Virus record (IMG/VR): IMGVR_UViG_3300037485_000555
Span: 1 to 22,817 of that record
From: a virus
Strand: one strand, 5' to 3'
DNA: 22,817 nucleotides
A model generated the notes under the pieces. The model searched no databases. It saw only the letters and a program-made list of their open reading frames with translations, and had not been told where the DNA came from. A program made the translations under genes and the position numbers. Position 1 is the stretch's first letter. The number at the start of each line of letters is the position of its first letter. Of the stretch, positions 4,031-20,665 are shown piece after piece.

Positions 4031-4690
4031 TTAACTCCTGTATCCGCGCATTATGATATCGTCGTCTTCTTTTTCCCTATGGGCTTCAACCTTATAAGCT
4101 TGTAGCCTATTCATATATTTAGATAAGGCATCGTTAGCTTTATCTCCATATCCCCTTGTTTCATAACCCGTAGCCGTAACCCAATCAACGATAGCAAGGT
4201 GTAAAGGCTCTGGAAGGTTTGGAGTTGACGAATCATCAGATAATCCACTAAACGTTCTCGTGTAATAAGTCCTTACATAATTGCTTCCAGCATTAGTTGA
4301 AGTTGGAGCGGGATATATAATAAGTAGGTCTTCTTCTTTGGAATAATAATAATCGGTAGGAGTCCCGCTTGGAGTGTTCATCCATCCAGAGAATCTAAGA
4401 TCAAAATCTTCGTAACTGCATATCGGATGAAGCTCTGTCCAAATAGATCCCTCGGTCTTATGATATAGTCTATCGATAGAAAGAAGATTAGGGTACACAG
4501 AGCTTAGCGTATATTCTTTCGTATCTAACAGAGGAGTCATATAACCATTGGTTTTAATAGCCTTTGTCTTATATGCTATATCTTCGCACGCCTCCGTGAT
4601 CCAACTATTTAGTTCCGCGTCAGACCAAAAGACACCAGAAGACTCTCCAAGTTTCTTTCTTGATAGATTCCTTATCTCAAGTCTTGTCAT
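4031..4690 (-). CDS. Head-to-tail adaptor (connector) protein, gp4-like
   Basis: The product has 219 residues. It begins with a helical segment (MTRLEIRNLSRKKLG, then WSDAELNSWITEACEDIAYKT) typical of phage adaptor proteins that bind under the portal ring. A middle beta-rich stretch follows (YTLSSVYPNLLSIDRLYH, YYYSKEEDLLIIYPAP), then a helical C-terminus (PLHLAIVDWVTATGYETRG through ALSKYMNRLQAYKVEAHREKE). This order (two helices, a Y/P-rich beta domain, the LPEPLHLAIVDWV helix) matches the P22 gp4-like / phage adaptor pattern as I know it. Its ATG overlaps the stop of the upstream 69-residue gene (ATGA at 4687-4690), so translation is probably coupled. It would join the portal to the tail hub encoded next. 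Its distance from the portal gene, about 14 kb, is unusual. Confidence 0.75.
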   Translation of the reverse strand: MTRLEIRNLSRKKLGESSGVFWSDAELNSWITEACEDIAYKTKAIKTNGYMTPLLDTKEYTLSSVYPNLLSIDRLYHKTEGSIWTELHPICSYEDFDLRFSGWMNTPSGTPTDYYYSKEEDLLIIYPAPTSTNAGSNYVRTYYTRTFSGLSDDSSTPNLPEPLHLAIVDWVTATGYETRGYGDKANDALSKYMNRLQAYKVEAHREKEDDDIIMRGYRS

Positions 4691-5065: not shown

Positions 5066-6544
5066 CTATTCCTCCACGGTTATATAATCGTTGCTTGGGT
5101 TAAAGTATATGGTATTGGGTTCTGTCGTGATAGCCCAACCCACCCGTCTAATAACATCGTCTGGTCCACTTGGCTGTGCCGCTTGTATATCACCTGCGCT
5201 TGTAGACACATACACAGGTGCTCCGAGTGCTATGGAGGCGGGGAAGGCCGCAGAACGCATAGTTCCTATAAGAAGAAGATTCGTTGCCTCTCCATTATTA
5301 GCGGCGAGTATGCAAAGAGCCAACGGAACATCTCCAGAAGTAGAAGCGGCATCAGCATCAGCAAGTAGCCACTCTCCTGCTGTCACATCCAGATAAAGTA
5401 AATCTCCGACTGCAACTGTAGCCCCTGCCGTACCCGTACAAGTAATCCCACTCCACTTCTCATCCGCTGAACCAGCGGGATCGAGCTGTATCGCCGTGTT
5501 CTCTGTGAGCTGGATATCTCCGAGCATGGATAACGCGCCAGAACCGACGAGCTTTGGGTTACAGACAAAGTTCGTACCATCGTAATAGAGAGAAGCGTCT
5601 GTCCCTGTTCCAAAGGTAAGACTCTGGTTATCAGCGACTATCTTTACCGTTCCAGCTGATGTGATTCGGAGTCTCTCATCTGGAGCCGTTTCTGTTACTA
5701 CGTCCCTAGTTCCAAATATTAAATCACCCTTGGTGTAAGTAGCTCTACTCGTTTCGACAAATCCCATATAAGCAGGGACGTTGGTTCGATTATAACTATA
5801 CCCAAAAGTCATAATCATTAGACTTCCAACCTCGTCATCACCCAATCCCAAGTGAAGCATCGAATTGGCTAGTGTTACGGAAGTAACATCTGCGGGTTTA
5901 TATATTTGCACTCCACCACGATTTACCAATTTTCCGCTTCCAACAGCGTCTGTTACCAAACAACAATTAGTTCCGTTGTAGTAAAACTCTACGTCATTGG
6001 CAGTTCCAAGGTAATATTTAATGTTATCCGCTGCCTTAAAAGACGCGCTTGCTGTGATCGTAGTTCCAACTATCGTTGTAGGAGTTGTAGCCCCTACAGT
6101 CCCGTTGATGTTGATAGAGGCTGTGCCTGTGAGATTGGTTACGGTTCCGCTGGCAGGTGTACCCAAAGCTCCACCTGAATACAGGATCGTAGCATCTGCA
6201 TCTGGAACCGTATAAGCCCTAGTCTGTCCAGCACCCATACCTGTAAGAGTGGCAAGACCTGTTGTTGCTGGAGACTTTAAACTCCCAGCGCTTCCAGTGG
6301 TATTCTGATTTAAGGTAGGGAAGGTACAGTTTGTAAGAGTTCCACTTGAAGGAGTCCCTAGGGCTCCACCACTCGTAATATACGATCCAATAGGCTGATA
6401 CGTGGCAGCAGCACTTATAATGGTAAGAAACGTGTACATCGTAGAGTCTATGGTGTCAAAGTTGGCTGATACATCAGACCCCCAACCAGTATCACCTATA
6501 GCGTACTTAGCTAATGAATAGTTCGTCGTTAAGGTTTTTGCCAT
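5066..6544 (-). CDS. Tail fibre / receptor-binding protein, second fibre
   Basis: The product has 492 residues from the chosen ATG. I prefer this start because MAKTLTTNYSLAKYAIGDTGW is a usual beginning for this fibre type; an upstream ATG would add eight residues. The N-terminal 50 residues probably anchor the protein in the virion. Repeated fibre motifs follow: GGALGTPSSGTLTN and GGALGTPASGTVTN, then modules with DNIKYYLGTANDVEFYYNGTN and NQSLTFGTGTDASLYYDGTN. The last 130 residues form a beta-rich domain (GDLLYLDVTAGEWLLADAD, RRVGWAITTEPNTIYFNPSND). The FGTG.D.S.YYDGTN module also occurs in the other fibre (8231-10702). The gene overlaps the end of the upstream zinc-ribbon gene by 16 bases. 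Host-surface binding is inferred; no enzymatic domain is visible. Confidence 0.8.
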   Translation of the reverse strand: MAKTLTTNYSLAKYAIGDTGWGSDVSANFDTIDSTMYTFLTIISAAATYQPIGSYITSGGALGTPSSGTLTNCTFPTLNQNTTGSAGSLKSPATTGLATLTGMGAGQTRAYTVPDADATILYSGGALGTPASGTVTNLTGTASININGTVGATTPTTIVGTTITASASFKAADNIKYYLGTANDVEFYYNGTNCCLVTDAVGSGKLVNRGGVQIYKPADVTSVTLANSMLHLGLGDDEVGSLMIMTFGYSYNRTNVPAYMGFVETSRATYTKGDLIFGTRDVVTETAPDERLRITSAGTVKIVADNQSLTFGTGTDASLYYDGTNFVCNPKLVGSGALSMLGDIQLTENTAIQLDPAGSADEKWSGITCTGTAGATVAVGDLLYLDVTAGEWLLADADAASTSGDVPLALCILAANNGEATNLLLIGTMRSAAFPASIALGAPVYVSTSAGDIQAAQPSGPDDVIRRVGWAITTEPNTIYFNPSNDYITVEE

Positions 6545-6858
6545 AAATATGTCCCACAGAACGGGCATCCACCCGTTACTCCTACGTTAACAACAGTCTT
6601 TACTCCCCCCCAATCCGATGATCCCCAATAAGCTTTCCCCCAACCAACATTAACAGTTTCGGTAGAAGAATAATCATGTCCTTCTCCAGCCTTACTTCTA
6701 TCCCTATAAGATCTATCCCTGTCAGCGTTGCATATAAATCCACACTTGGAGCATCTGGCTCCCTGGTTTCCACGTGGAACCTTCCTATCGGCATGTCGCC
6801 CTTTATATATAGACTCATCGATATATCTAGGTTTTCTTCCTAGCCCGTGCATGCTCAT
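6529..6858 (-). CDS. Small zinc-ribbon protein, second of a tandem pair
   Basis: The product has 109 residues from the ATG that overlaps the previous stop as ATGA. The frame stays open upstream to a TTG at 6888, but no ribosome binding site supports that start. It carries two cysteine pairs, CSKCGFIC near the middle and GGCPFCGTYLW near the C-terminus, together a probable zinc ribbon. The same CxxCGF(V/I)C..DRD and GCP(L/F)CG.Y elements occur in the gene just upstream (6855-7130), so the two are tandem paralogues. This copy has an extra glycine/tryptophan-rich stretch (WGKAYWGSSDWGG) between the knuckles. It lies directly before the second fibre. Function is unknown; a small virion or assembly protein is possible. 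Confidence 0.75.
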   Translation of the reverse strand: MSMHGLGRKPRYIDESIYKGRHADRKVPRGNQGARCSKCGFICNADRDRSYRDRSKAGEGHDYSSTETVNVGWGKAYWGSSDWGGVKTVVNVGVTGGCPFCGTYLWQKP

Positions 6859-7130
6859 CTGTACGTATAAGCTCCGCATAAAGGACAACCGCTACTAACA
6901 ACAGGGTCCATAGCATCTGTGTTTACTGGAGAAAGAGCGGTAGATGTAACTCCAGTTCCAGCCTTACCTCTAAGGGCAGCATCCCTATCCTTATGGCATA
7001 CGAAACCACACTGCCTACAACGAACATATCTGGAGTCTTTTAAACTTACATGCTCAGCGTTTCTTCCAGACTCAACGCTCTTTGAGTGCATAGGGAATCT
7101 TTCTTTAGGTTTATGCCACTCCCTAAACAT
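6855..7130 (-). CDS. Small zinc-ribbon protein, first of a tandem pair
   Basis: The product has 91 residues. I chose the ATG at 7128-7130 because AGGAGG lies four bases upstream, inside the last codons of the preceding gene (AGG AGG TAG TATG). The frame is open 11 codons further upstream, without a good start. The N-terminus is basic (FREWHKPKERFP). CRQCGFVCHKDRDAA and GCPLCGAYTYR form two CxxC knuckles separated by about 40 flexible residues. It is paralogous to the following gene (6529-6858). No catalytic motif is visible, and the role is unknown. Confidence 0.75.
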   Translation of the reverse strand: MFREWHKPKERFPMHSKSVESGRNAEHVSLKDSRYVRCRQCGFVCHKDRDAALRGKAGTGVTSTALSPVNTDAMDPVVSSGCPLCGAYTYR

Positions 7131-7131
7131 A

Positions 7132-7572
7132 CTACCTCCTGAACCTTTCAACGCTACCAGCACCAGAGTCTTGAGGTTCCAGCCTTCTCATAACCTGCTT
7201 ATATTCATAAGCGAGTTTGCCGTTTCGTTTCTCCCAATCTAGATTTTTCACAGGAGCATGCGGGTGCCTTCTAAGATCGTGCATCTCTTCTCTCGTTGGC
7301 ATACCTTCGCTCATTATAGATTCCAGTTCTTTAGCCCTAGCCGCTAGTTTATCTTTATCCTTGCCCCTTATCGTAGGAGCCGTTCCTTTAGCTGCAAGAG
7401 CCTCAAGGCTTCGAGTTTGCTTCTCAAGAGCTGCCTTATCCATAGACGATCCTTTTGAACCAGCTCCGTATTGCTCTCTCTCTATCTCCCTAAGCATACT
7501 CCTGTTCATCTGAGCGTCTTCTTTTAATGACTTTAGTTCGCTTTGAGACATTACATATTGCTGTTTAGCCAT
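7132..7572 (-). CDS. Conserved phage structural-region protein, charged and helical
   Basis: The product has 146 residues, is highly charged and looks mostly helical, with coiled-coil potential at about 8-35 and 47-90 (SELKSLKEDAQMNRSMLREI; KLAARAKELESIMSEG). The C-terminal third has MPTREEMHDLRRHPHAPV followed by LDWEKRNGKLAYEYKQVMRRL.P.D and ends in ERFRR. I recognise this layout as recurring in small phage proteins beside zinc-ribbon genes, without an assigned function. The ATG follows AGGGGATAAG, a reasonable ribosome binding site. The stop overlaps the ribosome binding site of the next zinc-ribbon gene, suggesting coupled translation. Confidence 0.75.
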   Translation of the reverse strand: MAKQQYVMSQSELKSLKEDAQMNRSMLREIEREQYGAGSKGSSMDKAALEKQTRSLEALAAKGTAPTIRGKDKDKLAARAKELESIMSEGMPTREEMHDLRRHPHAPVKNLDWEKRNGKLAYEYKQVMRRLEPQDSGAGSVERFRR

Positions 7573-8230: not shown

Positions 8231-10702
8231 CTATTTAGTTCCTACTGAACGACTTCCTATTGTGTCTATCGGGTAATGAACACCGCAAGTAATCATCAAC
8301 GCATCCCCGCCGTATTCATCTGCGGTTGCATCCACCCGTGTAAGTATAAAACAGAACTGGTCGCCTATCTTGATATTTCCACCATCGTATCCACCCGTAG
8401 TGCCTTCAATGATTGCAAAATCGTTTCTGACACATTGGTACTGTGCCGTGATTGCTGCATCGGGAGAATCAACCGTAGTAGGAGCATTAATAGTCTGACC
8501 GTCCCGTGTTATGGTATATTTCAATCTCCATTGAACATTATCTGTCCCACCAGCAGGAGCAGCAATCCCTTGCCAGTGAACGTGAAAAGTCAAGTCTCCA
8601 CCTTCTTGATAGTCGTGTTGGATTTCAAACTGACCAGAGATGCTTTCGTTCAGAGCGAATGCGTAAGTTTCAATTCCAGTATCATTTCCCGCTTCGTCTT
8701 TAAATTGTACAATATCTGGATACCCTGAAGTTGGTTTCCATACAGCAGCAGCACCAAGATTAATATCCTTATATACTGGAACCTCAAGAACTATAGTCTT
8801 TGCTGTTCCGCAATCCACCACGAGGTCACTCGGAGCAACAAGGTCAGTGTCTATATTTTGATTGGTTCCGTCATAATATATCGAGGAGTCAACTCCTGTT
8901 CCAAACTTTATTGCCTCGTTATCTGGAAGAGCTATATCGTCAGAAAACTTAAAGTAATCTTCGTCCTCCATCCATTTGAATTCACCTGAGTTTGTTTCTC
9001 CAGGGAAGGACATTGTGTAGTCAACACCAGCAAGACCAGCCCCAAAGATTGCGTTAGCCGAGGTAAGCTGAAAGTCTCTTTGCCCATATCCCCAGTTGAA
9101 AGACGAGTTCGTAGCTTCGATATAGCCATATCCAAACGCAAGAGTGCTTGTGCCGTTTGCTTGCAGATAACTTCCGAGAGCAACAGCGTAATCTCCATCG
9201 GATCTGTTCGTATAACCTATACAAGTCGCATAATTGCCAAGAACTATATTTACGCTTCCTATGCCAACAGAGTAGGCACCGTATCCTCCGCCCTCGTCAC
9301 CGATAGAATTGTTTGAGCCGATGCTGATTCCATAATCTGCACCTGTGAATACAACCCCATATCCAATAACAACACCATAACTACCAGTAACAGCACTCCC
9401 CGACCCAACGGCTGTTCCTGTCTCGCCATCAAGAATATTGGCTGAACCTAAAACCGTGCAATTAGTTCCAGAGACTTCATTCCCACTACCTATTGCCGTT
9501 GAGCCATAGCCAGATACGGTATTACTTACTCCGTAAATATAAGCCGATACGGCAGTAAGATTATTACCTGTTCCTATGGCACACGCGTTGTCTGCAGTTA
9601 CTCTGTTATTATCCCCTATCGCATAAGCGTTAGCCGCAGTAGCCTCGCTCTGTTGACCTAATGCGAGAGCAGAACTACCTGAAGCCTTTGAATCGTTACC
9701 CATTGCAATAGAGTTAAGACCAATATTACCATCATCAAATTGTGTGCCTGTGACTGCTCCACATCTAAAGGCGGCTTTCTCTGGAATCCACATCAGGCGA
9801 GTCCCTGCTCCTGCTGTTGGAGTAGAACCAGAAGTACCAGTTAATAGAAGTGATGCACCTTGAATAATACCTGTAGCTTTCTTGAGCGAAATATTATCAA
9901 TACCAAATCTACTAGTGGTAGTTGGAGTAAACACCAAGTTAGCCGTGCTTGTTGCTCTAAATGTAGTCTTATGCGTTCCATTAGCCGTAGCAGTCATTAG
10001 TGTAGAGCCACCACAGGTAACCACACATGACATAGCCGCACTTGACTTATTGACCACATCGAACTGGAGCGTATACCATTCATTTACGATAAGAGGTGTT
10101 ACCATTGCCGCTGATGTTTGAGTAACTGTTTCCACTCCTGCAACCGTATGAAATACAATGCTACCTGTCCAAGCGGAGAACGCTACAGTATTATCACCTG
10201 TTCCAGATGCTTTAGTAAGGTTACCGCTCGATGGATTACCAGAACCTGTCATTACCATAAATCCAGACTTGTTTGGTGCTGTGCCTGTGATTAAGGTATA
10301 TCGAGTAGTAAAGGTTATGCCATTATTTGTATAGGTAGAGTTAACTAAAGGACTGGTAGTGATGCCCGATACCGTGAATACATACCCAAGTGACCAACTC
10401 GCACCAAGCGACCAACCAGTAGAACTCTGTCCTGTGAACGCTCCATTGGTAATCTTCTCTGCACCAAGAGCTGAGGGGGTAACAATAAGATTGGATGGTA
10501 GGAGACTGTTCTCGTCGAAAGTAAGACCAGCGGAATCAATAAGAGTCTTGGTCGCTGAGTAATACGGAACCCTTGTAGCAGTACCCCAGTTAAGGATAGG
10601 AGAGGCTGTGATGGTCTGAGGCGTGGTCTGATCCAGCTTAAGATAGCGAGCGTCGTAAGTCGCATACATCAAACTTCTATGTTCGGATTCTAAGAGCCCC
10701 AT
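8231..10702 (-). CDS. Large tail fibre with YadA-like beta-roll
   Basis: The product has 823 residues. The N-terminus (1-40) contains YDARYLKLDQTTPQTITA, a common fibre repeat. Residues about 80-275 form a carbohydrate-binding-like beta-sandwich (ITNGAFTGQSSTGWSLG ... SRFGIDNISLKKATG) that appears to carry an inserted beta domain at about 111-178. Residues 325-540 hold around 15 imperfect repeats of about 14 residues (SIAMGNDSKASGSSALALG, AYAIGDNNRVTADNACAIG), the pattern of YadA/trimeric-adhesin head beta-rolls. Residues 590-620 carry the FGTGVDSSIYYDGTN module shared with the second fibre, and about 650-823 form a beta-rich C-terminal domain (FHVHWQGIAAP). It probably trimerises and binds the host surface. 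Its start overlaps the upstream gene by 13 bases. Confidence 0.85.
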   Translation of the reverse strand: MGLLESEHRSLMYATYDARYLKLDQTTPQTITASPILNWGTATRVPYYSATKTLIDSAGLTFDENSLLPSNLIVTPSALGAEKITNGAFTGQSSTGWSLGASWSLGYVFTVSGITTSPLVNSTYTNNGITFTTRYTLITGTAPNKSGFMVMTGSGNPSSGNLTKASGTGDNTVAFSAWTGSIVFHTVAGVETVTQTSAAMVTPLIVNEWYTLQFDVVNKSSAAMSCVVTCGGSTLMTATANGTHKTTFRATSTANLVFTPTTTSRFGIDNISLKKATGIIQGASLLLTGTSGSTPTAGAGTRLMWIPEKAAFRCGAVTGTQFDDGNIGLNSIAMGNDSKASGSSALALGQQSEATAANAYAIGDNNRVTADNACAIGTGNNLTAVSAYIYGVSNTVSGYGSTAIGSGNEVSGTNCTVLGSANILDGETGTAVGSGSAVTGSYGVVIGYGVVFTGADYGISIGSNNSIGDEGGGYGAYSVGIGSVNIVLGNYATCIGYTNRSDGDYAVALGSYLQANGTSTLAFGYGYIEATNSSFNWGYGQRDFQLTSANAIFGAGLAGVDYTMSFPGETNSGEFKWMEDEDYFKFSDDIALPDNEAIKFGTGVDSSIYYDGTNQNIDTDLVAPSDLVVDCGTAKTIVLEVPVYKDINLGAAAVWKPTSGYPDIVQFKDEAGNDTGIETYAFALNESISGQFEIQHDYQEGGDLTFHVHWQGIAAPAGGTDNVQWRLKYTITRDGQTINAPTTVDSPDAAITAQYQCVRNDFAIIEGTTGGYDGGNIKIGDQFCFILTRVDATADEYGGDALMITCGVHYPIDTIGSRSVGTK

Positions 10703-10977
10703 ATCCTGACATTACCTCCACCCGCCGTACCCTTAATATAGACTCCAGTCTTACCGCCAAGATGAACCGTAATAGACTCGTTAGATTTGAGATCACCTTC
10801 AAGCGTTGCTCCATCATAAGAAAATTGTACGGTATCTGTTGCTGAGTCATTTGTAATAGTTACCCTCGTTAAAGTCCTTCCGAAAGACTTCTCGACATAA
10901 AGATTGGTCGTAGTGTACTCGGTATAATAGGTTACTGGACCACCCGTGATCTGAACAAAGTCTGATTGAAATCCCAT
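10690..10977 (-). CDS. Small beta-rich structural protein
   Basis: The product has 95 residues, starting MGFQSDFVQITGGPVTYYTE. It is rich in T, V, G and Y and alternates in a way that suggests a small beta-sandwich (TRVTITNDSATDTVQFSYDG, NESITVHLGGKTGVYIKG). There is no signal peptide and no catalytic motif. Its ATG overlaps the stop of the VEVP-repeat gene (TAATG), and its last codons overlap the start of the large fibre. This resembles small phage proteins that decorate heads or attach fibres, but I cannot assign a family. Confidence 0.75.
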   Translation of the reverse strand: MGFQSDFVQITGGPVTYYTEYTTTNLYVEKSFGRTLTRVTITNDSATDTVQFSYDGATLEGDLKSNESITVHLGGKTGVYIKGTAGGGNVRIWGS

Positions 10978-11474
10978 TAAACTTCCTTCCCACAGTTCTG
11001 GCAGGTATAGTGAGGCTTGATGACGTCTACTATCCTATCCCTGAAGATAGGCTTCTCAACGAGTATCTCCCTCTCTTTGAACTGCACCACTTCCTTAGGA
11101 ACTATCTTTTCAACAACCTTAACTACAACCTTTTCTACTTCTATAATCTTATCCACGTACTTAGGAACCTCGACAATCTTATCCACGTACACGGGACGAT
11201 CTACAATCACGTCCTTGAATACCACTCTGTCGGTAAGGACTTCTTTAATGACAGTCTTAAATTCAGGAACTTCGACTGTCCTCGGTACATACACAGGCTT
11301 ATCCACGTTGTAGGGGACAAATACGGGGGTCGGTACCTCTATGCGCTTTTCCACCCATACAGGACGCTCTACGGTTACGTCCTTGAATACAGGAGTTTCA
11401 ACCTCGCGTTGGATGACCTTCCTGATTACTTGCGTCTCTACCTGTGATGCAGCCGAATCATGTTCGAATGGCAT
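10977..11474 (-). CDS. VEVP-repeat (alveolin-like) protein with C-terminal CxxC
   Basis: The product has 165 residues and almost entirely consists of degenerate repeats alternating V/I with charged residues and proline: FKDVTVERPVWVEKRIEVP, NVDKPVYVPRTVEVP, FKDVIVDRPVYVDKIVEVP, YVDKIIEVEKVVVKVVEK. FKDV.V.RPV.V(E/D)K appears twice about 65 residues apart. The pattern is close to the EKIVEVP-type repeats of alveolins and related cytoskeletal proteins of protists. The C-terminus ends with HYTCQNCGKEV, one CxxC pair (158 and 161) that could bind zinc with a partner chain. It probably forms an extended beta or filamentous fold. Its ATG overlaps the previous stop (TAATG). The role in the phage is unknown; a spacer, fibre shaft or surface layer is possible. 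Confidence 0.8.
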   Translation of the reverse strand: MPFEHDSAASQVETQVIRKVIQREVETPVFKDVTVERPVWVEKRIEVPTPVFVPYNVDKPVYVPRTVEVPEFKTVIKEVLTDRVVFKDVIVDRPVYVDKIVEVPKYVDKIIEVEKVVVKVVEKIVPKEVVQFKEREILVEKPIFRDRIVDVIKPHYTCQNCGKEV

Positions 11475-11836
11475 TAGCTTCCAGCCTCCTGAAATATGAT
11501 CACCAGTGTAACGACAGTAGCGGCAACGTTATTCTCGACTACTTTGTACCTTATCTTTGTCCCTAATACAGGGGTATAAACAAGCCAACGGCCAGTTGTA
11601 GATGTCTGCTGAAGAGATACCCATCCAACGGTAGCTCCTCCTGAGTTGGCTGGATCATACCAATCCTTACCATTGATAGAGCATTGCTGACTTACAGATA
11701 TGTTCCCAGCCGTGCTTGTTAATAGAACAGCAACCTCTCCAGTTGACGCTGTAAAATCCATAGAGTTGCTATAAGCAGTGGCTGCCTTTCCAACGCTTAC
11801 AGCGTTCATCAATGTCTCTCTACCAATGATTCTCAT
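11474..11836 (-). CDS. Small beta-sandwich structural protein, copy 2
   Basis: The product has 120 residues and is paralogous to the 122-residue product at 13392-13760. Shared elements are a YS..(M/V)DF start, a hydrophobic strand (GEVAVLLTSTAG here, GYAAIILTNSAA there), the core (I/V)SQQ or TQQ then NG.DWYD, a mid strand ending in Y, and a C-terminal (L/I)IFQE. Such a beta-sandwich with a DWYD loop is common in small phage head or fibre proteins, possibly decoration. The gene overlaps the lipoprotein gene by ATGA and the next gene by TAATG. No enzymatic motif is visible. Confidence 0.75.
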   Translation of the reverse strand: MRIIGRETLMNAVSVGKAATAYSNSMDFTASTGEVAVLLTSTAGNISVSQQCSINGKDWYDPANSGGATVGWVSLQQTSTTGRWLVYTPVLGTKIRYKVVENNVAATVVTLVIIFQEAGS

Positions 11837-12090
11837 TTAAGTATCTCCACGATTCCATCGTCTGTATATATCGCTAACCACCTATGAGTCTTGGATGATC
11901 GATATACTGCCCTATAACCAAAGGCCTCTGCCAACTTCTTAGCGGCAATAGCCCTATCCCTACAATCAAGCCCACCTATGTTCTCCTTACCAAAGTCAGC
12001 GTATACTTTAGCCTCTATCTGCTTAGGAGTGGGTCTGTCGCTGCATCCAAGAAGAATAAGACCAAGTAATATCGCCGCTAAGTATCTCAT
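11833..12090 (-). CDS. Small lipoprotein with transglutaminase-like Cys/His pattern
   Basis: The product has 85 residues. The N-terminus is a lipoprotein signal: MRYLAAILLGLILLGCSD, with a lipobox-like LLGC and the acylated cysteine at 16. The mature part of about 70 residues has GLDCRDRAIAAKKLAEAFGY (Cys 43 at the start of a helix) and THRWLAIYTDDGIVEIL (His 69 in a strand). This helix-with-Cys then strand-with-His order is that of transglutaminase-like cysteine proteases, where an acid (here perhaps D77, D78 or E82) completes the triad. It is far shorter than usual for that family, so the enzyme call is tentative. It lies between the LamG-like gene and a beta-sandwich gene with ATGA overlaps on both sides. 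Alternatives are a superinfection-exclusion or lysis-related lipoprotein. Confidence 0.7.
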   Translation of the reverse strand: MRYLAAILLGLILLGCSDRPTPKQIEAKVYADFGKENIGGLDCRDRAIAAKKLAEAFGYRAVYRSSKTHRWLAIYTDDGIVEILK

Positions 12091-13385
12091 AGGTTAAGAA
12101 TCTCGGTTATACTTTTAACAGCTGCAGCACTTTTAACATCGCTGAACATTGCTACTGATTGAAGCACTCCGTCAAATTGGTCTGTCACACCACCACTCCC
12201 AACTAACCAATTAGTAGCGAACCCTTTTGACGCCCAGTTCGTATTATCAGTTCCATCAGCTACACCATCAACATAGACTGCGCTGTTCGGATTAACATTA
12301 GAAGAATCGCACGCAAGAGTAAACACATAAGACGTATTACCTTTTAAGTTCACGGTAGACATGATTGCGGCTTGACCTGTTTGAGAGTTTGGATAGGTTC
12401 TCATACCAGTGTTTGTACTACCCTTATCAATAAGTCTTGTGCCTCCAGACGAACTTGGGTCGTATAGAACGGTTCTCCATTTTCCATCGTTCGCAAAAGT
12501 GCTACAAGGAGCAATTTTAAGTACTATCGTTTCCTTATCCTGTGTTCTGTTACCAGTAGAAACATAACTTAAAACTTCATTATTCCTCGTCAACGCAGCC
12601 GTAGTCGTAGGGATGAAGGAGGTAGCGTAGGGGAGGGCTTCAAGTTGACATCCCCATATGTAAACAGCATCGGTGTTGGTTGCTATCTCAAGATAAAAAG
12701 CAGGATCTTTCCCTGCCGAATCTCCATCAGTAGTAGCCGTAACATAATGCCTGGTCCAATTCGTAGTGATAGTTTTCTCAGTCTTCCCAGTTCCATCTTC
12801 AACAGCCCCAAGATATATCTTGCCAGTGCCTGTCTTTCGTTTAAGCCAACAGGAAGCTGTGAAGGTTTGAGTATCTCCAGTAATAGCATATGCCTGAACA
12901 AATGTTCCATTAGCAGAGGTCGCAACGAGCCTTGGTGAAGTTGCCGTATTATCCAAAGAATAAGATCCAGCGTCTGCATCTTCTGCCGTTATGTTTGCCT
13001 TGGTCCAAGCAGCATTTTCTGGAACATTGGAATAGGTAGCACAATTGGTACTCGCCCTCTCCATCATCAGCCCAGGCTTATGCCATGCCCCTGTAGCGTC
13101 GTAGTACCCATCCGTCCACCGAGGTCCATTATTAGTAGTCTGCGTAATAATCGTCTTATCAGCCTGGACATACATGGCAGGATGCGTAGCATCAGTAGAG
13201 CGGGTAAACGTACCAGTACCCGATCCAACGGAGTACACAGCGTCAACAGAATGGGTGCCTGAGTAGTCAGCGAAGAACGTAAGCCCCCCATAAGAACGAA
13301 GGGCTTTAGCTTTAGCGTCTGATTTGGACGCTCCAAACTCCGTCTTCCCGAAGGCTCCTACCTTCCTGAACTTGTTTTTAACCAT
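12087..13385 (-). CDS. Carbohydrate-binding/LamG-like adsorption protein
   Basis: The product has 432 residues. The basic N-terminus (MVKNKFRKVGAFGKTEFGAS) may anchor it to the virion. The stretch GGLTFFADYSGTHSVDAVYS to PGLMMERASTNC (about 33-115) introduces a carbohydrate-binding-like beta-sandwich (about 117-250: SYSLDNTATSPRLVATSANG, TFTASCWLKRKTGTGKIYLG). This ends with the common phage motif CQLEALPYATSFIPTTTAAL. A concanavalin/LamG-like domain (about 270-430: TYVFTLACDSSN-type strands, SAVYVDGVADGTD) completes the chain. Proteins of this layout are often head fibres or fibre-associated glycan binders. No hydrolase motif is visible. The start has AGGAG upstream. Confidence 0.75.
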   Translation of the reverse strand: MVKNKFRKVGAFGKTEFGASKSDAKAKALRSYGGLTFFADYSGTHSVDAVYSVGSGTGTFTRSTDATHPAMYVQADKTIITQTTNNGPRWTDGYYDATGAWHKPGLMMERASTNCATYSNVPENAAWTKANITAEDADAGSYSLDNTATSPRLVATSANGTFVQAYAITGDTQTFTASCWLKRKTGTGKIYLGAVEDGTGKTEKTITTNWTRHYVTATTDGDSAGKDPAFYLEIATNTDAVYIWGCQLEALPYATSFIPTTTAALTRNNEVLSYVSTGNRTQDKETIVLKIAPCSTFANDGKWRTVLYDPSSSGGTRLIDKGSTNTGMRTYPNSQTGQAAIMSTVNLKGNTSYVFTLACDSSNVNPNSAVYVDGVADGTDNTNWASKGFATNWLVGSGGVTDQFDGVLQSVAMFSDVKSAAAVKSITEILNL

Positions 13386-13391
13386 GACGGC

Positions 13392-13760
13392 TTACTCCTG
13401 AAATATCAAACGGATCGTAACGTTCGTTGTTACTCCAGCGCTTTCTACTATCTTAAACCGTATCCATCTTGCTACGACAGGATCGAACTGGACGTATCTG
13501 GTAGTAGCAGTTGTGGTAATAACCTGAACCTGACCTATAGCCGAGTTGTTCTGATCCACGCAGTCATACCAGTCACTACCGTTGGATGATGCCTGTTGGG
13601 TTACTGTGATCGTAGCCGTAGCAGCACTGTTAGTTAGAATAATCGCAGCGTATCCAGTGCAACGACTGAAGTCAACAGCACTTGAATAAACTGTACCGCT
13701 AATACCAGTGACTAAAGCGCTGGCTACTGTATTCTCTGTAAGACTATTAGTCTCTTTCAT
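13392..13760 (-). CDS. Small beta-sandwich structural protein, copy 1
   Basis: The product has 122 residues, with beta strands around GYAAIILTNSAATATITV, the loop SSNGSDWYDCVDQN and a C-terminal RFKIVESAGVTTNVTIRL strand ending in IFQE. It is paralogous to the 120-residue product at 11474-11836, with the 432-residue adsorption gene and the lipoprotein gene between the copies. The ATG has GGAGGGG upstream. It lies just downstream of the beta-helix-like gene and a long hairpin. A head decoration or fibre-attachment role is a guess; no family is assigned. Confidence 0.75.
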   Translation of the reverse strand: MKETNSLTENTVASALVTGISGTVYSSAVDFSRCTGYAAIILTNSAATATITVTQQASSNGSDWYDCVDQNNSAIGQVQVITTTATTRYVQFDPVVARWIRFKIVESAGVTTNVTIRLIFQE

Positions 13761-14871: not shown

Positions 14872-15273
14872 TTACCCGTTGATTGCTTTCTTAAACTCTT
14901 GGTATATCGCCTCCCTCGGAGCCTTGTCGATTGGAGCGTATCTCCCGTTAGGGAGCTGCGGCCTCTTCTCGTTTGGATTCAAGAGACTCAACATACCAAG
15001 AGCCAATTCTAATTTCCGACGTTTGACTATTGAATGCTCAATGATGTCTTTAATAAACCGCTCTGTTTGATGTTTGCGTGAGATGCGCCAATGCCAGCAA
15101 ACTCCACCTATTTTTGTAGGTTTCGTCTCGTACAAAAACCCACCCCACAACGCTTGCATCTGCTCCAGAACGTTCTTATTCGCCTGAGTTACGACGATGG
15201 CGACTTGGTGGTTTTTTCCAATCACCACGCATCCCTCACCGTCAAAGAACCCAGCAGCATATTTTATGTCCAT
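14872..15273 (-). CDS. LAGLIDADG-type homing endonuclease, free-standing
   Basis: The product has 133 residues from the ATG preceded by AGGAGG with five bases spacing; a GTG two codons upstream is less likely. The N-terminus YAAGFFDGEGCVV (residues 5-17) is a single LAGLIDADG motif with its acidic residue in DGEG, so the enzyme should act as a dimer. The following parts (VAIVVTQANKNVLEQMQALW, HWRISRKHQTERFIKDII) match the usual beta-beta-alpha layout of this family. It sits between the capsid gene and the next structural gene without splitting either, so it is free-standing rather than an intron or intein. It has its own promoter-like sequence upstream. Confidence 0.85.
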   Translation of the reverse strand: MDIKYAAGFFDGEGCVVIGKNHQVAIVVTQANKNVLEQMQALWGGFLYETKPTKIGGVCWHWRISRKHQTERFIKDIIEHSIVKRRKLELALGMLSLLNPNEKRPQLPNGRYAPIDKAPREAIYQEFKKAING

Positions 15274-15295
15274 AAACACCTCCTGTTTACGAACT

Positions 15296-15341: not shown

Positions 15342-16241
15342 TTAGGATACGGCATTACCATATATCCAGGTCCAGGAGCTAAAACCGTAAGTGTAACGGT
15401 TATACACGCTCCATTTACTGATATAGGTATCGAAATCCTTATCCTTGTTGAACTCGGTAGGGATACGATCAAACCACTTCAGGTACATCTTCGCGTACTT
15501 CTCGTCGATCAAGAACCAGTTATTCGTGTCGGTCAAATAATCCCACACGACAACCTTGTACCCCAGCGACTTGATAAAGTTAATATCATTGTTCGCTGTG
15601 GTAGGTTTCTTTTCCGACTGAGTGATCTCGTAGGCGATCTGTTCCAGCTCAGGCGGGACTAAAAGCAGAGTCCCTCTAGCCGTAATTAGATTATCTTTCT
15701 CATCCACGAAGTCCCTCATCGCCAACCTTGCGGTAGCGAGTGAAGTCGCTGACAACGCTGCCGTACCCGTATTGGACTGCGTAGTAGCAGTACCAACGTA
15801 GCTATGAGCAGACGCGCAAAGAGCATACGTATCCCCGCCAGCAAACACGCTCGTGTTGAACGCGCTGTTGAATACGGAGGCACCATGCTTCTCACGAGTA
15901 CGCTTAGCCGAAACAGCCAGCGCCATCGGACGCTTGTTAATGACCGAATACTGATCGTCATCCACAAGCTTCCTTTCGATCTTCATACCATTTACCCATT
16001 CACGATGGGTATACGAAACCCTATACTGACCATCGAAATCAGTATACGGAATCGTTCCCGTGAACTCGGTCATGTCACCGATCCCACCGATTGCATAATC
16101 GTACTCGACAGCCTTGGAAGATTTCTCCATGCCATACAGAGTATCGATCTGTGAATCAGGAAGAGTATACTCGTCCATGAATATCTTACGGAGTCCTGGG
16201 TCGAGTAGATACCCAAAGTTCTCGCTGATTACCAATCCCAT
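15342..16241 (-). CDS. Major capsid protein, Mu gpT-like (HK97 fold)
   Basis: The product has 299 residues. The N-terminal part (MGLVISENFGYLLDPGLRKI) is followed by the domain pattern TEFTGTIPYTDFDGQYRVSY, HREWVNGMKIERKLVDDDQY, LAVSAKRTREKHGASVFNSA. This is characteristic of the Mu gpT-like family of HK97-fold capsid proteins. The C-terminal half has GTLLLVPPELEQIAYEI and YKVVVWDYLTDTNNWFLID, usual for the P- and A-domain region of these proteins. Length fits an unprocessed capsid protein without a long delta domain. It follows the scaffold and an unrecognised structural gene, as expected for the head module. The start is preceded by a good ribosome binding site. Confidence 0.85.
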   Translation of the reverse strand: MGLVISENFGYLLDPGLRKIFMDEYTLPDSQIDTLYGMEKSSKAVEYDYAIGGIGDMTEFTGTIPYTDFDGQYRVSYTHREWVNGMKIERKLVDDDQYSVINKRPMALAVSAKRTREKHGASVFNSAFNTSVFAGGDTYALCASAHSYVGTATTQSNTGTAALSATSLATARLAMRDFVDEKDNLITARGTLLLVPPELEQIAYEITQSEKKPTTANNDINFIKSLGYKVVVWDYLTDTNNWFLIDEKYAKMYLKWFDRIPTEFNKDKDFDTYISKWSVYNRYTYGFSSWTWIYGNAVS

Positions 16242-16262: not shown

Positions 16263-17060
16263 TTACGTAATGACTCGCGTTCCGACCACACCACCCGTTG
16301 CCAGGAGATGTTCAGGGAAGAACAGGTCAACGTAGAATTCAGGGTCCTCGTCCTTGTAGTTATAGCCAGAATGCTTGGCGCAAACTAAAGGCTCCATCGG
16401 ACGCGTCTTCGACGTGATGAAGTTCTCCAGCGGAATAGCATTACCAGCGTGAGCTGCCGTGCCATACCCAAGAGCATCTCTCCCGTTAGCGTTCAGATCG
16501 AAGCTTCCACCCGCTACGTCTGCCGTATAAGGCGCAGGCATAACAAAGAAAGTATCGACAGCGGCTAACGTGTCTTTCATGTTGTCGTCATAATCAGTAG
16601 CCGCAGTAATTGTCGCAGTCGTGCCTGAAGCACCGATCTGGAACAGGTTACCGAAACCACCAACAGACGAACCACCATCGGTGACATAAGCCCAACCGCG
16701 TTCATGATCCGTGACCATAGTCTGAGTCAGAATCTTCGGGGTTGTGGTCGTAGTGACAACCGTCGTCGGATTATAAAGCGCTTTGTAGACCATGAACGGA
16801 TTGATAAGCAGTTTCCCGTACTTATCCACACCCGTCGCAACCACGCTCAAAAGCTGAGCAGCAGTCAGATCTTCCATGAGCAGCCCCATAATGTTATCGA
16901 GGATAGTCACCCTAGCAAGAACCGCGCAACCATTCGCAGCCGCAGTGCCAGTAATACCTGCCGCCATAAGGGTTCCTCTGGTCCGTGCCGTGCCCGCGTC
17001 ATACACGCGCGTATCGCGAATAATCGGTTCCGCTCCCGTCAAATCATAAGACATCTTCAT
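16263..17060 (-). CDS. Unrecognised head-region structural protein
   Basis: The product has 265 residues, starting MKMSYDLTGAEPIIRDTRVY. It has a glycine/alanine/threonine-rich N-terminal half (GTLMAAGITGTAAANGCAV), a mid part with YGKLLINPFMVYKALYNP and a beta-rich C-terminal half (GWAYVTDGGSSVGGFGNLFQ, DTFFVMPAPYTADVAGGSFD) ending in FYVDLFFPEHLLATGG. I recognise no family. Its place directly before the capsid gene and after the scaffold suggests a decoration, head-fibre or minor capsid protein. Its ATG overlaps the stop of the zinc-ribbon gene (ATGA), so expression is coupled. Confidence 0.75.
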   Translation of the reverse strand: MKMSYDLTGAEPIIRDTRVYDAGTARTRGTLMAAGITGTAAANGCAVLARVTILDNIMGLLMEDLTAAQLLSVVATGVDKYGKLLINPFMVYKALYNPTTVVTTTTTPKILTQTMVTDHERGWAYVTDGGSSVGGFGNLFQIGASGTTATITAATDYDDNMKDTLAAVDTFFVMPAPYTADVAGGSFDLNANGRDALGYGTAAHAGNAIPLENFITSKTRPMEPLVCAKHSGYNYKDEDPEFYVDLFFPEHLLATGGVVGTRVIT

Positions 17061-17359
17061 TGTGAATCTCCTTGGTTTTGTTTCTCCAGGGTTGCCTTAA
17101 ACGTTTTGTCGGTAGCAACTCTTCGGTTGAACATATCGACAATTCCGCTAAATTTACCCTTTTTGAAAGGTGCATACGGATGAATGAGATGATCCCTGCC
17201 AGTTTCATAAGAGAACGGAAGACCGCACTTCCTACAACGATACCGCAGTCTATAAGGTCCTAAGTTCTCCACGTAACGAATGGCCTGACTATCACAAACA
17301 GGGCAGCTAAGACTGCCCCCAAATGCCCCTCGATTCATACCCTTTTGGAAGATGCCCAT
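17057..17359 (-). CDS. Small zinc-ribbon protein in the head module
   Basis: The product has 100 residues with two CxxC knuckles, CPVC at 19-22 and CRKC at 42-45, separated by about 19 residues; this is a zinc ribbon. The N-terminus is basic (FQKGMNRGAFGG) and the C-terminus is charged and helical (DMFNRRVATDKTFKATLEKQ). GAGG lies just before the ATG. It sits between the scaffold and an unrecognised structural gene and is not obviously homologous to the two zinc-ribbon proteins at 6529-7130 outside the knuckles. Function is unknown; it might bind DNA or head proteins during assembly. Confidence 0.75.
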   Translation of the reverse strand: MGIFQKGMNRGAFGGSLSCPVCDSQAIRYVENLGPYRLRYRCRKCGLPFSYETGRDHLIHPYAPFKKGKFSGIVDMFNRRVATDKTFKATLEKQNQGDSQ

Positions 17360-18720: not shown

Positions 18721-18923
18721 TATTCCTCCCGATCTATAACATCTTGAGGTAGTGTTAATAGTTCCCTATACGTAGCTATCTTAGCTTGGATCAAAGTCAT
18801 TGGAGTACCTTGTGGGCAATCTTCTAACTTTGTCCTAAGCTTCTCTATACGATCTCTTATCTCATCGCACAGCATAGAGAATAGAACTGATTGTTTTAAT
18901 TCCTTAGCCTGTTCTATTGTCAT
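18720..18923 (-). CDS. Small helical protein after the portal
   Basis: The product has 67 residues, mostly charged helix (EQAKELKQSVLFSMLCDEIR, DRIEKLRTKLEDCP) followed by a second helix (MTLIQAKIATYRELLTLPQD); it looks like a helical hairpin or coiled coil. It overlaps the portal stop (ATGA at 18920-18923) and the next gene (TAATG). Similar small helical proteins follow the portal in many phages, sometimes as head-completion or assembly factors. No specific function can be assigned. Confidence 0.75.
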   Translation of the reverse strand: MTIEQAKELKQSVLFSMLCDEIRDRIEKLRTKLEDCPQGTPMTLIQAKIATYRELLTLPQDVIDREE

Positions 18924-20665
18924 TGTGGGGGCGCTCCTAAGACTTCCTCTGCTATCTGGTCTTCAGATGCGCCTTCTTTCATTCGACGCATAATCATATT
19001 CTGTTGTTCAGAAGTAAGCCCACCTCCCGATGCGCTTGCACCAGGAGGCGCTTGGGGGACAAGAAGCTTCTGAGAGTCTTTGAATCCCATAAGCTCGGCA
19101 ATACGTTTATTAATCTCCGCACGATTAATCGTTGGATCATTTACAGTTACTTCTTTAAATCTAAGTAATTGTCCAACCTGAGTCTCCTTGTTTACAGTTT
19201 CTGATAATCCCGTAGGTATAAAGTAAACCTTAGCCTGTATGTCTTCTGGTGTTATACGTACTGGTTTAGACTCTCCGTTTTCCCCAGTAACCTGTACCCA
19301 CTCATCAGCAGACATAAACTGATTTAGATTGGAGAAAAAGAACATCGCTGTAGCCTGAATGAAGTCCGTTTCGAGTTTTCTAAGCACTGGACGAAATCGC
19401 ATTCCAGCGGCCCCTTGAAGCAACTGTATGCCCATCGCCGTCCTGTGTTGATCCCCAACCTGATCAGAGGGCATGAGCTGTACGGTAGCTCCCGTGACTT
19501 CTCGAAAATCTGCCTTAGCTTTCTCCTCTTCAACGTATGAACTTTGGGTGACATCTGGAGTCTCCATCCAACGTATAGAATTCACAGTGTCTGACACCTT
19601 ACGCCATAATCCAGGCGTAGACTGCTGGAGTTTCTTAACGTTTATAAGAGGGTCATTTCCATTATAGAAACCCTGTTTGTTCATTACTAGGTCTACGTTG
19701 TCTAAGCGTTGGTTAACTATTTTATTAACGCGCTCCTGACTTGCTAGACCTACTTTGCCGACTCCAACACCAAACCATGAAGGCTTTGCGTCTATGAAGA
19801 ACTTCATTCTGACAAACGGTTCTTTTTGATGGTTGTATGGATTCGGAACGCATCTAATCTTAATTTTACGGTTAATAACCATGATCTGATAAGGAACTGC
19901 TTTGCGAGTAACCTGCTTCTCTTCCAACGTTATCTCATCATCAAACGGACCCCAGTACGTTAATAGCTCGTACACTTCTCCCTTGCGAGGTTGATAATGG
20001 CTAACTCCAGCAATCGTACTGTTTGTTATGTCAGATTTGATAGCTTCGTCCATATTCTCGAACTTAAAGAACGGATTCTCTACCATCGACTTAAACGTCT
20101 CAGCGTCCATAAACTGACGACGGATCAAAGGCTTGTTATCTCCAACCTCCAACTTATCTGGGTGCGGAAAGAGTTCGAACAAATCAACGTGTTTAAAATC
20201 AGGTCTTGATTCAATAATTGTGTAGTATCTCTTTCCTTCAGAATCCATCTGCCAACCGCGTTTAACTAACCATCCTCCAGCGTAGCAGTATCCAGTTCCG
20301 AATAACGTGTTCTGAGTAAGACTTGGAAAAGACTCGCTCTGTACTTCAGCGACACGAAATACGTGCTGAAGCAAATGTTTTATCTTAGATCCCTGTTCAG
20401 GATCAGAATCACCTTCGACTTGAACATCTATAGGAGCTTCATTCGAAAACAAAGCCGTAACGATTCTGGGAGTAAGAGTCTGCTCGCCTTCAAAGGTTAA
20501 GGGTACGTGTACGTTGTTAGACCAATCTAATTCTTTCTTAGGAGGTATGCCTATCCAGTTATCGTATATCTTCTCCATCTCTTTGAAATGATCAGCCCAG
20601 TGAGCCTCGTACCTTTCAAACTCGCTTACTACGTACTTTACTATCTTGCTATCTCTGTCTTCCAT
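18920..20665 (-). CDS. Portal protein
   Basis: The product has 581 residues. The N-terminus is helical and charged (KIVKYVVSEFERYEAHWADH, KEMEKIYDNWIGIPP), followed by WSNNVHVPLTFEGEQTLTPR and the portal-like stretch LTQNTLFGTGYCYAGGWLVK. The central region has MKFFIDAKPSWFGVGVGKVG, then QERVNKIVNQRLDNVDLVMN, typical of the stem and clip region in P22-like portals. The C-terminal part is helical and ends with a Q/E/P/G-rich tail (LTSEQQNMIMRRMKEGASED). The gene follows the large terminase with a TAATG overlap, the standard order. It would form the 12-subunit DNA entry ring at one head vertex. Confidence 0.85.
   Translation of the reverse strand: MEDRDSKIVKYVVSEFERYEAHWADHFKEMEKIYDNWIGIPPKKELDWSNNVHVPLTFEGEQTLTPRIVTALFSNEAPIDVQVEGDSDPEQGSKIKHLLQHVFRVAEVQSESFPSLTQNTLFGTGYCYAGGWLVKRGWQMDSEGKRYYTIIESRPDFKHVDLFELFPHPDKLEVGDNKPLIRRQFMDAETFKSMVENPFFKFENMDEAIKSDITNSTIAGVSHYQPRKGEVYELLTYWGPFDDEITLEEKQVTRKAVPYQIMVINRKIKIRCVPNPYNHQKEPFVRMKFFIDAKPSWFGVGVGKVGLASQERVNKIVNQRLDNVDLVMNKQGFYNGNDPLINVKKLQQSTPGLWRKVSDTVNSIRWMETPDVTQSSYVEEEKAKADFREVTGATVQLMPSDQVGDQHRTAMGIQLLQGAAGMRFRPVLRKLETDFIQATAMFFFSNLNQFMSADEWVQVTGENGESKPVRITPEDIQAKVYFIPTGLSETVNKETQVGQLLRFKEVTVNDPTINRAEINKRIAELMGFKDSQKLLVPQAPPGASASGGGLTSEQQNMIMRRMKEGASEDQIAEEVLGAPPQ

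Follow-up and report, generated by a model that had tools for sequence, protein, structure and literature searches.

A conserved family of phage repeat proteins with an alveolin-like two-residue register, encoded ahead of fibre genes

Here we describe a family of small, valine-rich repeat proteins that is real, conserved in phages and unreported in the literature searched. In malaria parasites, ciliates and euglenids the surface is supported by the alveolin/articulin repeat, for which we know of no structure. Among the matches listed, the phage family offers the grammar of that repeat in natural isolation, in about 30 small proteins (~165 aa), with a strict two-residue register (an acid, proline and aromatic face opposed to a basic and valine face) that amounts to a testable rule and is obeyed by alveolin peptides too. 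The phage protein cannot be filed as an alveolin, and it most likely works like an alveolin repeat by convergence. We favour, at a probability of roughly 0.45, a reading in which the protein forms an oligomeric, two-faced beta-ribbon that would act as a stalk between the virion and its receptor-binding fibre.

The protein was found in a 22,817-nt phage fragment, the whole of which is referred to here as the window. The repeat gene is phage-encoded, with genes for terminase, portal, head/adaptor, capsid and tail proteins all present. The features relevant to the repeat gene are collected in Table 1.

Table 1. Features of the window (IMG/VR record IMGVR_UViG_3300037485_000555, positions 1-22,817 of the record).
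Feature	Position	Strand	Basis
Head structural/adaptor protein	4031..4690	-	phrog_399, E=3e-15
Variable fibre/adhesin-like protein (823 aa), encoded immediately after the cassette	8231..10702	-	Position, overlap, inspection
C2, 95-aa predicted beta-sandwich, directly downstream of the repeat gene	10690..10977	-	Clusters, L166 fusion, AF2, Foldseek
Repeat protein (C0 family), two-faced V/I-charged-P, 165 aa, C-terminal KPHYTCQNCGKEV knuckle	10977..11474	-	ORF and translation, relatives, register, selection
C-terminal KPHYTCQNCGKEV knuckle of the repeat protein	10977..11018	-	16-sequence group A alignment
C1, ~120 aa, directly upstream of the repeat gene	11474..11836	-	Cluster C1 at position -1 in most loci
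Tail protein, region of the repeat gene	12087..13385	-	phrog_5939 tail protein, E=7e-21
Second C1 copy	13392..13760	-	Clusters with the C1 gene
Major capsid protein	15342..16241	-	phrog_371, E=1.6e-18
Portal / head-tail connector	18920..20665	-	phrog_332, E=1e-30

A sequence-only reading of this DNA had drawn attention to V/I-charged-P repeats with a terminal CxxC at 10977-11474. These coordinates are correct; the reading was silent on the strand, and the ORF, which runs from ATG to stop, lies on the minus strand. Forward-strand ORFs across the same interval were rejected as the gene, with a stop in one frame and nothing supporting them. Between residues 12 and 154 the protein contains 28% valine, 9.1% isoleucine, 37.1% charged residues and 9% proline, with no glycine, alanine or serine, and its C-terminus reads C158-Q-N-C161-G-K-E-V. 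Motifs of the [VI]-charged-P type occur 11 times against 1.05 expected, with at most 5 in any of 5,000 shuffles, and parity coherence reaches 70 of a possible 80 (20,000 shuffles gave a mean of 7 and a maximum of 38). The DNA of the gene contains short tandem repeats that have diverged (2.3-2.8 copies at 76%), so no young DNA repeat underlies the protein pattern. The ratio dN/dS between relatives is about 0.1-0.2, close pairs with measurable dS having dN of 0.12-0.24 and dS of 0.9-2.7, and this purifying selection identifies a real gene rather than an accident of composition. The sequence is compositionally biased, as a low-complexity artefact of composition or of a non-coding ORF would be. 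However, the register stands far above the shuffles, the relatives are under selection, and both the gene cassette and the cysteines are conserved, which reduces the chance of an artefact to a negligible level; shuffles and selection together rule out composition as its source. The motif count, the parity and the selection likewise exclude chance as the origin of the repeats, and the repeats and the terminal CxxC are thus confirmed.

Scanning viral contigs with the window protein as a single sequence returned no relatives, and the degenerate pattern V[ED]K[VI]V[ED]VP matched at least 120 stretches in viral contigs. Whole-chain relatives sharing the C-terminus of the window protein were present among the matches listed, and alignments of these added more. 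Together with loci seeded from the neighbouring genes C1 and C2, the matches listed and the alignment scans give about 30 loci, all on uncultured phage contigs. Members of group A share 29-49% identity with the window protein. In an alignment of 16 group A sequences, K153, P154, Y156, C158, Q159, C161 and E164 are invariant. The CxxC motif is missing from three relatives (L093, L137 and L152). Matches to a rubredoxin/desulforedoxin-type knuckle (Desulfoferrod_N, E=0.01) in the C-terminal region of relatives are weak. Searches of 50,697 GenBank phage records for the repeat protein, C1 and C2 recovered no relatives; in such a search the low-complexity filter may mask the repeat protein, and the composition of C1 and C2 is ordinary. 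No solved structure matched the repeat protein in sequence, and PHROGs held no convincing family for it. One relative with the full cassette, L153 (CAJVYE010000014.1), comes from an 11-kb contig that binning assigned to a Nitrospirae MAG. Binning of phage contigs is unreliable, and a single relative on such a contig is too weak to name Nitrospirae as the host, giving at most a possible hint.

All 223 spacings between successive prolines in 22 members are even, 10 residues being found 74 times and 12 residues 46 times, and in the window protein alone the proline spacing peaks at a lag of 10. When residues of the 22 members are assigned to the two alternate phases, prolines divide 245/0, acidic residues (D/E) 581/66, aromatics 186/30, K/R 96/599 and valines 167/666. 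The register score is at most 3.2 in 437 background proteins of the same loci and 3.1-8.9 in the family, the window protein scoring 7.3 and L093, L169 and L040 lowest. An extended chain of this sequence would carry a proline, acidic and aromatic face opposite a lysine, arginine and valine face, almost uninterrupted over about 140 residues, and the same parity is also kept by geometries other than a single extended strand.

The gene neighbourhood is also conserved. Clustering of the genes of 29 loci showed that in most of them the repeat gene comes immediately after C1 and immediately ahead of C2 (~95 aa, sometimes longer), and this order is kept across phages whose terminase, portal and capsid genes are unrelated. 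In a second group (L040, L108, L150 and L093) different neighbours occupy the flanking positions, and the similarity between C1 and the upstream protein of group B (C36) is not significant overall. The reading frames of the cassette overlap or nearly abut in most loci; in the window C1 and the repeat gene share 1 base, the repeat gene and C2 1 base, and C2 and the 823-aa gene 13 bases. Because loci gathered through the repeat protein are biased towards it, blind scans were also started from C2 and from C1. Of 13 loci reached through C2, 12 have the repeat gene immediately upstream of it, and the remaining one (L193) is a weak partial match; of 10 reached through C1, 8 have the repeat gene beside it, C1 occurring without a repeat gene in L202 and L203. 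In one relative (L166:7752-9686) the C2 domain forms the N-terminus of a 645-aa fibre-like protein, and a free-standing C2 gene adjoins it. C2 is predicted to be an eight-stranded beta-sandwich (AF2 pLDDT 82.7); Foldseek matched this model among uncharacterised phage proteins, and in a fold search of the PDB no match fell below E=0.001, those obtained being weak ones to beta-sandwiches. What follows C2 is often a fibre-like gene, variable across loci and encoding a tail fibre in L155 (PHROG E=7e-34), and the 823-aa protein of the window is fibre-like by inspection and has no PHROG match. The conserved cassette ahead of fibre genes supports the adsorption-region setting that the sequence-only reading had assigned to the protein.

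Two further observations concern the neighbours of the cassette. Runs such as AIGSGNEVSGTNCTVLGSAN in the 823-aa protein resemble, by eye, the head repeats of YadA-type trimeric adhesins. An upstream protein of ~200 aa (cluster C4) begins with a zinc-ribbon motif of the type CDRCGFDYKKSxLKRQRGMxLSxDC followed by a beta domain, and is conserved in ten loci (L138, L159, L160, L162-L166, L168 and L170).

The likeness to alveolins extends beyond composition. The curated cut-off of the Pfam alveolin profile (PF12314, IMCp) is 21.1 bits, and the window protein falls just below it (18.1 bits, E=0.0034); 19 of 23 members match at E<=10, and L148 (35.5 bits), L136 (27.5 bits) and L133 (25.2 bits) exceed the cut-off. 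The match is lost when composition, residue class or the residues within each parity are shuffled, one block shuffle giving E=3, so that an absence of profile similarity beyond composition, which the sequence-only reading had named as counting against it, was not what we found. The heptad [ED]K[IV][VI][ED][VI]P occurs once in the window protein (DKIVEVP) and 0-4 times in relatives. The alveolin consensus heptad is EKIVEVP, and the repeat domain spans ~140 residues in the two alveolins compared (PMC12465100). Published repeat domains of epiplastins (n=219) contain 25+-7% valine, 9+-4% isoleucine and 35+-6% charged residues, with glycine, alanine and serine nearly absent (PMC6212826), and the core of the window protein falls within this profile. 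An epiplastin would be expected to belong to an organism that assembles an epiplast and to be predicted as beta-strand and coil with no alpha-helix, and the repeat gene sits on a bacteriophage contig; the word 'phage' is absent from the epiplastin paper, and phage members are unmentioned there (PMC6212826). Peptides of P. falciparum IMC1g and IMC1c (PMC5071865) divide between the two phases as P 10/0, D/E 25/2, K/R 0/26, aromatics 8/0 and V 4/31, the sample being lysine-containing tryptic peptides, each phased separately, rather than full proteins. Published alveolin peptides thus keep the same parity rule, with the same faces, as the phage repeats.

Three groups of known proteins invite comparison. 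With the alveolins of apicomplexans and other alveolates the phage protein shares EKIVEVP-type motifs, composition, parity, the length of the repeat domain, a monomer predicted to lack order and the IMCp match; it differs in being phage-encoded, where an alveolin would be localised to the inner membrane complex or subpellicular network of an alveolate, in being ~165 aa long with almost no head or tail, in its repeat unit, in its C-terminal CxxCG knuckle and in its virion-type cassette. Articulins and epiplastin-like proteins, including those of Caulobacter (PMC6212826, PMC4303705), are alike in V/I content (33%), charged residues (35%) and the near absence of G/A/S, and also in acid-base dyads, VPV-type repeats and a presence outside epiplast-bearing organisms, whereas the phage gene is accompanied by neither a membrane skeleton nor a cellular host gene. 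Finally, EKIVEVP or IKEVP linkers with the same two-residue register are common, among the matches listed, in unrelated phage proteins (L015, L023, L060, L070, L090, L098 and many of L011-L130). In these the motif and the parity rule are shared, but the repeats form a linker beside transmembrane, coiled-coil or SLH/beta-helix regions, whereas in the family described here the repeats, organised as P-x-[YF] decapeptide units, make up the whole protein, which ends in CxxC.

It could be argued that the phage protein is a true homologue of alveolins or articulins, through shared ancestry or gene transfer between protist and phage. The breadth and strength of the IMCp matches, their loss on shuffling even when composition and register are kept, and the common composition and face rule all speak for this. 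However, the window protein itself is below the cut-off, the position of the match varies from member to member, no head or tail specific to alveolins was recognised, and the commonest phage unit is 10 residues, whereas alveolin tandem repeats have a consensus period of 12 (PMC4303705). Moreover, the cut-off is also exceeded, at 27.4 bits, by L090, a phage membrane protein that is unrelated to the family and contains an EKIVEVP linker. A score above the IMCp cut-off is not sufficient to show kinship with alveolins, and common ancestry is left unproven; we regard homology as very unlikely. Since the matches are scattered, L090 passes and linkers of the same parity are common in unrelated proteins, it is simpler to suppose that phage protein and alveolins converged on one physical solution. 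Of the alveolin likeness proposed from sequence, the resemblance beyond composition therefore stands, and the shared ancestry entertained alongside convergence is unsupported.

The repeat gene sits between C1 and the C2-fibre genes, so, of the roles considered, that of a stalk or spacer is the likeliest for its product and, judged from gene order, a plausible one. The linkage of a stalk module to fibre genes and to a fibre adaptor was found in the C1-repeat-C2-fibre order, in the blind scans and in the L166 fusion. This gene context suggests a place for the repeat protein in the virion, and the protein may nevertheless be absent from virions. A largely disordered alternative, in which the protein would tether the fibre as a monomeric elastic spacer, like titin PEVK or an entropic linker, with no ordered ribbon, is suggested by the AF2 monomer, which is extended, with no helix or other secondary structure (pLDDT 58), and by the similar EKIVEVP linkers inside unrelated phage proteins. 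This model is of low confidence and cannot reveal pairing between chains, and it was too poor for a fold search. Disordered linkers, however, need no parity, whereas the strict proline phase of the family asks for a fixed side-chain orientation, and a V+I content of 37% is typical of beta strands rather than of disorder; we therefore consider such a spacer unlikely. We are similarly doubtful that the protein is an intracellular, cytoskeleton-like filament or scaffold, or a chaperone of fibre assembly, rather than a virion part. Alveolins and articulins are indeed cytoskeletal, and from gene position a component of the virion and a factor for its assembly look alike, but the tight linkage and near-overlap with C2, itself the N-terminal domain of the L166 fibre-like protein, argue against this reading.

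According to the two-faced ribbon model that we prefer, the modules of the virion would be ordered as C1 (the probable base), the repeat protein (stalk), C2 (adaptor) and the variable receptor-binding fibre. At least two repeat chains might run as long beta-strands and pair, acid to base, into a twisted ribbon of the kind modelled for pairs of different alveolins. In the published AlphaFold models an alveolin has no order by itself and takes up a twisted beta-ribbon in specific heterodimers, and homodimer models of the alveolin PfIMC1g give no ribbon (PMC12465100). The phage ribbon would be a thin spacer, stiff or elastic, holding the C2-fibre assembly off the particle by up to ~45-48 nm if fully extended (143 residues x ~0.33 nm). 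Each chain has one CxxC, and the knuckles of two chains may, by analogy with the Rad50 zinc hook (PMC5093744), share one Cys4 zinc site and so clamp the end of the ribbon; the analogy is drawn from sequence, and in contrast to Rad50 the phage protein has no coiled coil. Relatives that lack CxxC indicate that such a clamp is not essential everywhere. The fuller proposal, that phages independently evolved a zinc-clamped, self-pairing beta-ribbon of the alveolin type as a stalk for their receptor-binding fibres, is more speculative, and we hold it only tentatively. If the virion stalk is true, phage fibres would gain a new architecture that is neither a coiled coil nor a triple beta-spiral nor a beta-helix, and the alveolin filament, still unsolved, would have a minimal model for experiments.

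Other genes of the window also merit mention. An HNH endonuclease gene (14872-15279; phrog_5046, E=2.9e-13), likely a homing endonuclease, lies between the capsid and tail genes, and an 85-aa putative lipoprotein, with a signal peptide containing LLGC, is encoded within the structural region (11833-12090). Paired, zinc-ribbon-like CxxC knuckles are present in three more small proteins (17057-17359, 6855-7163 and 6529-6888), the last two of which are paralogues.
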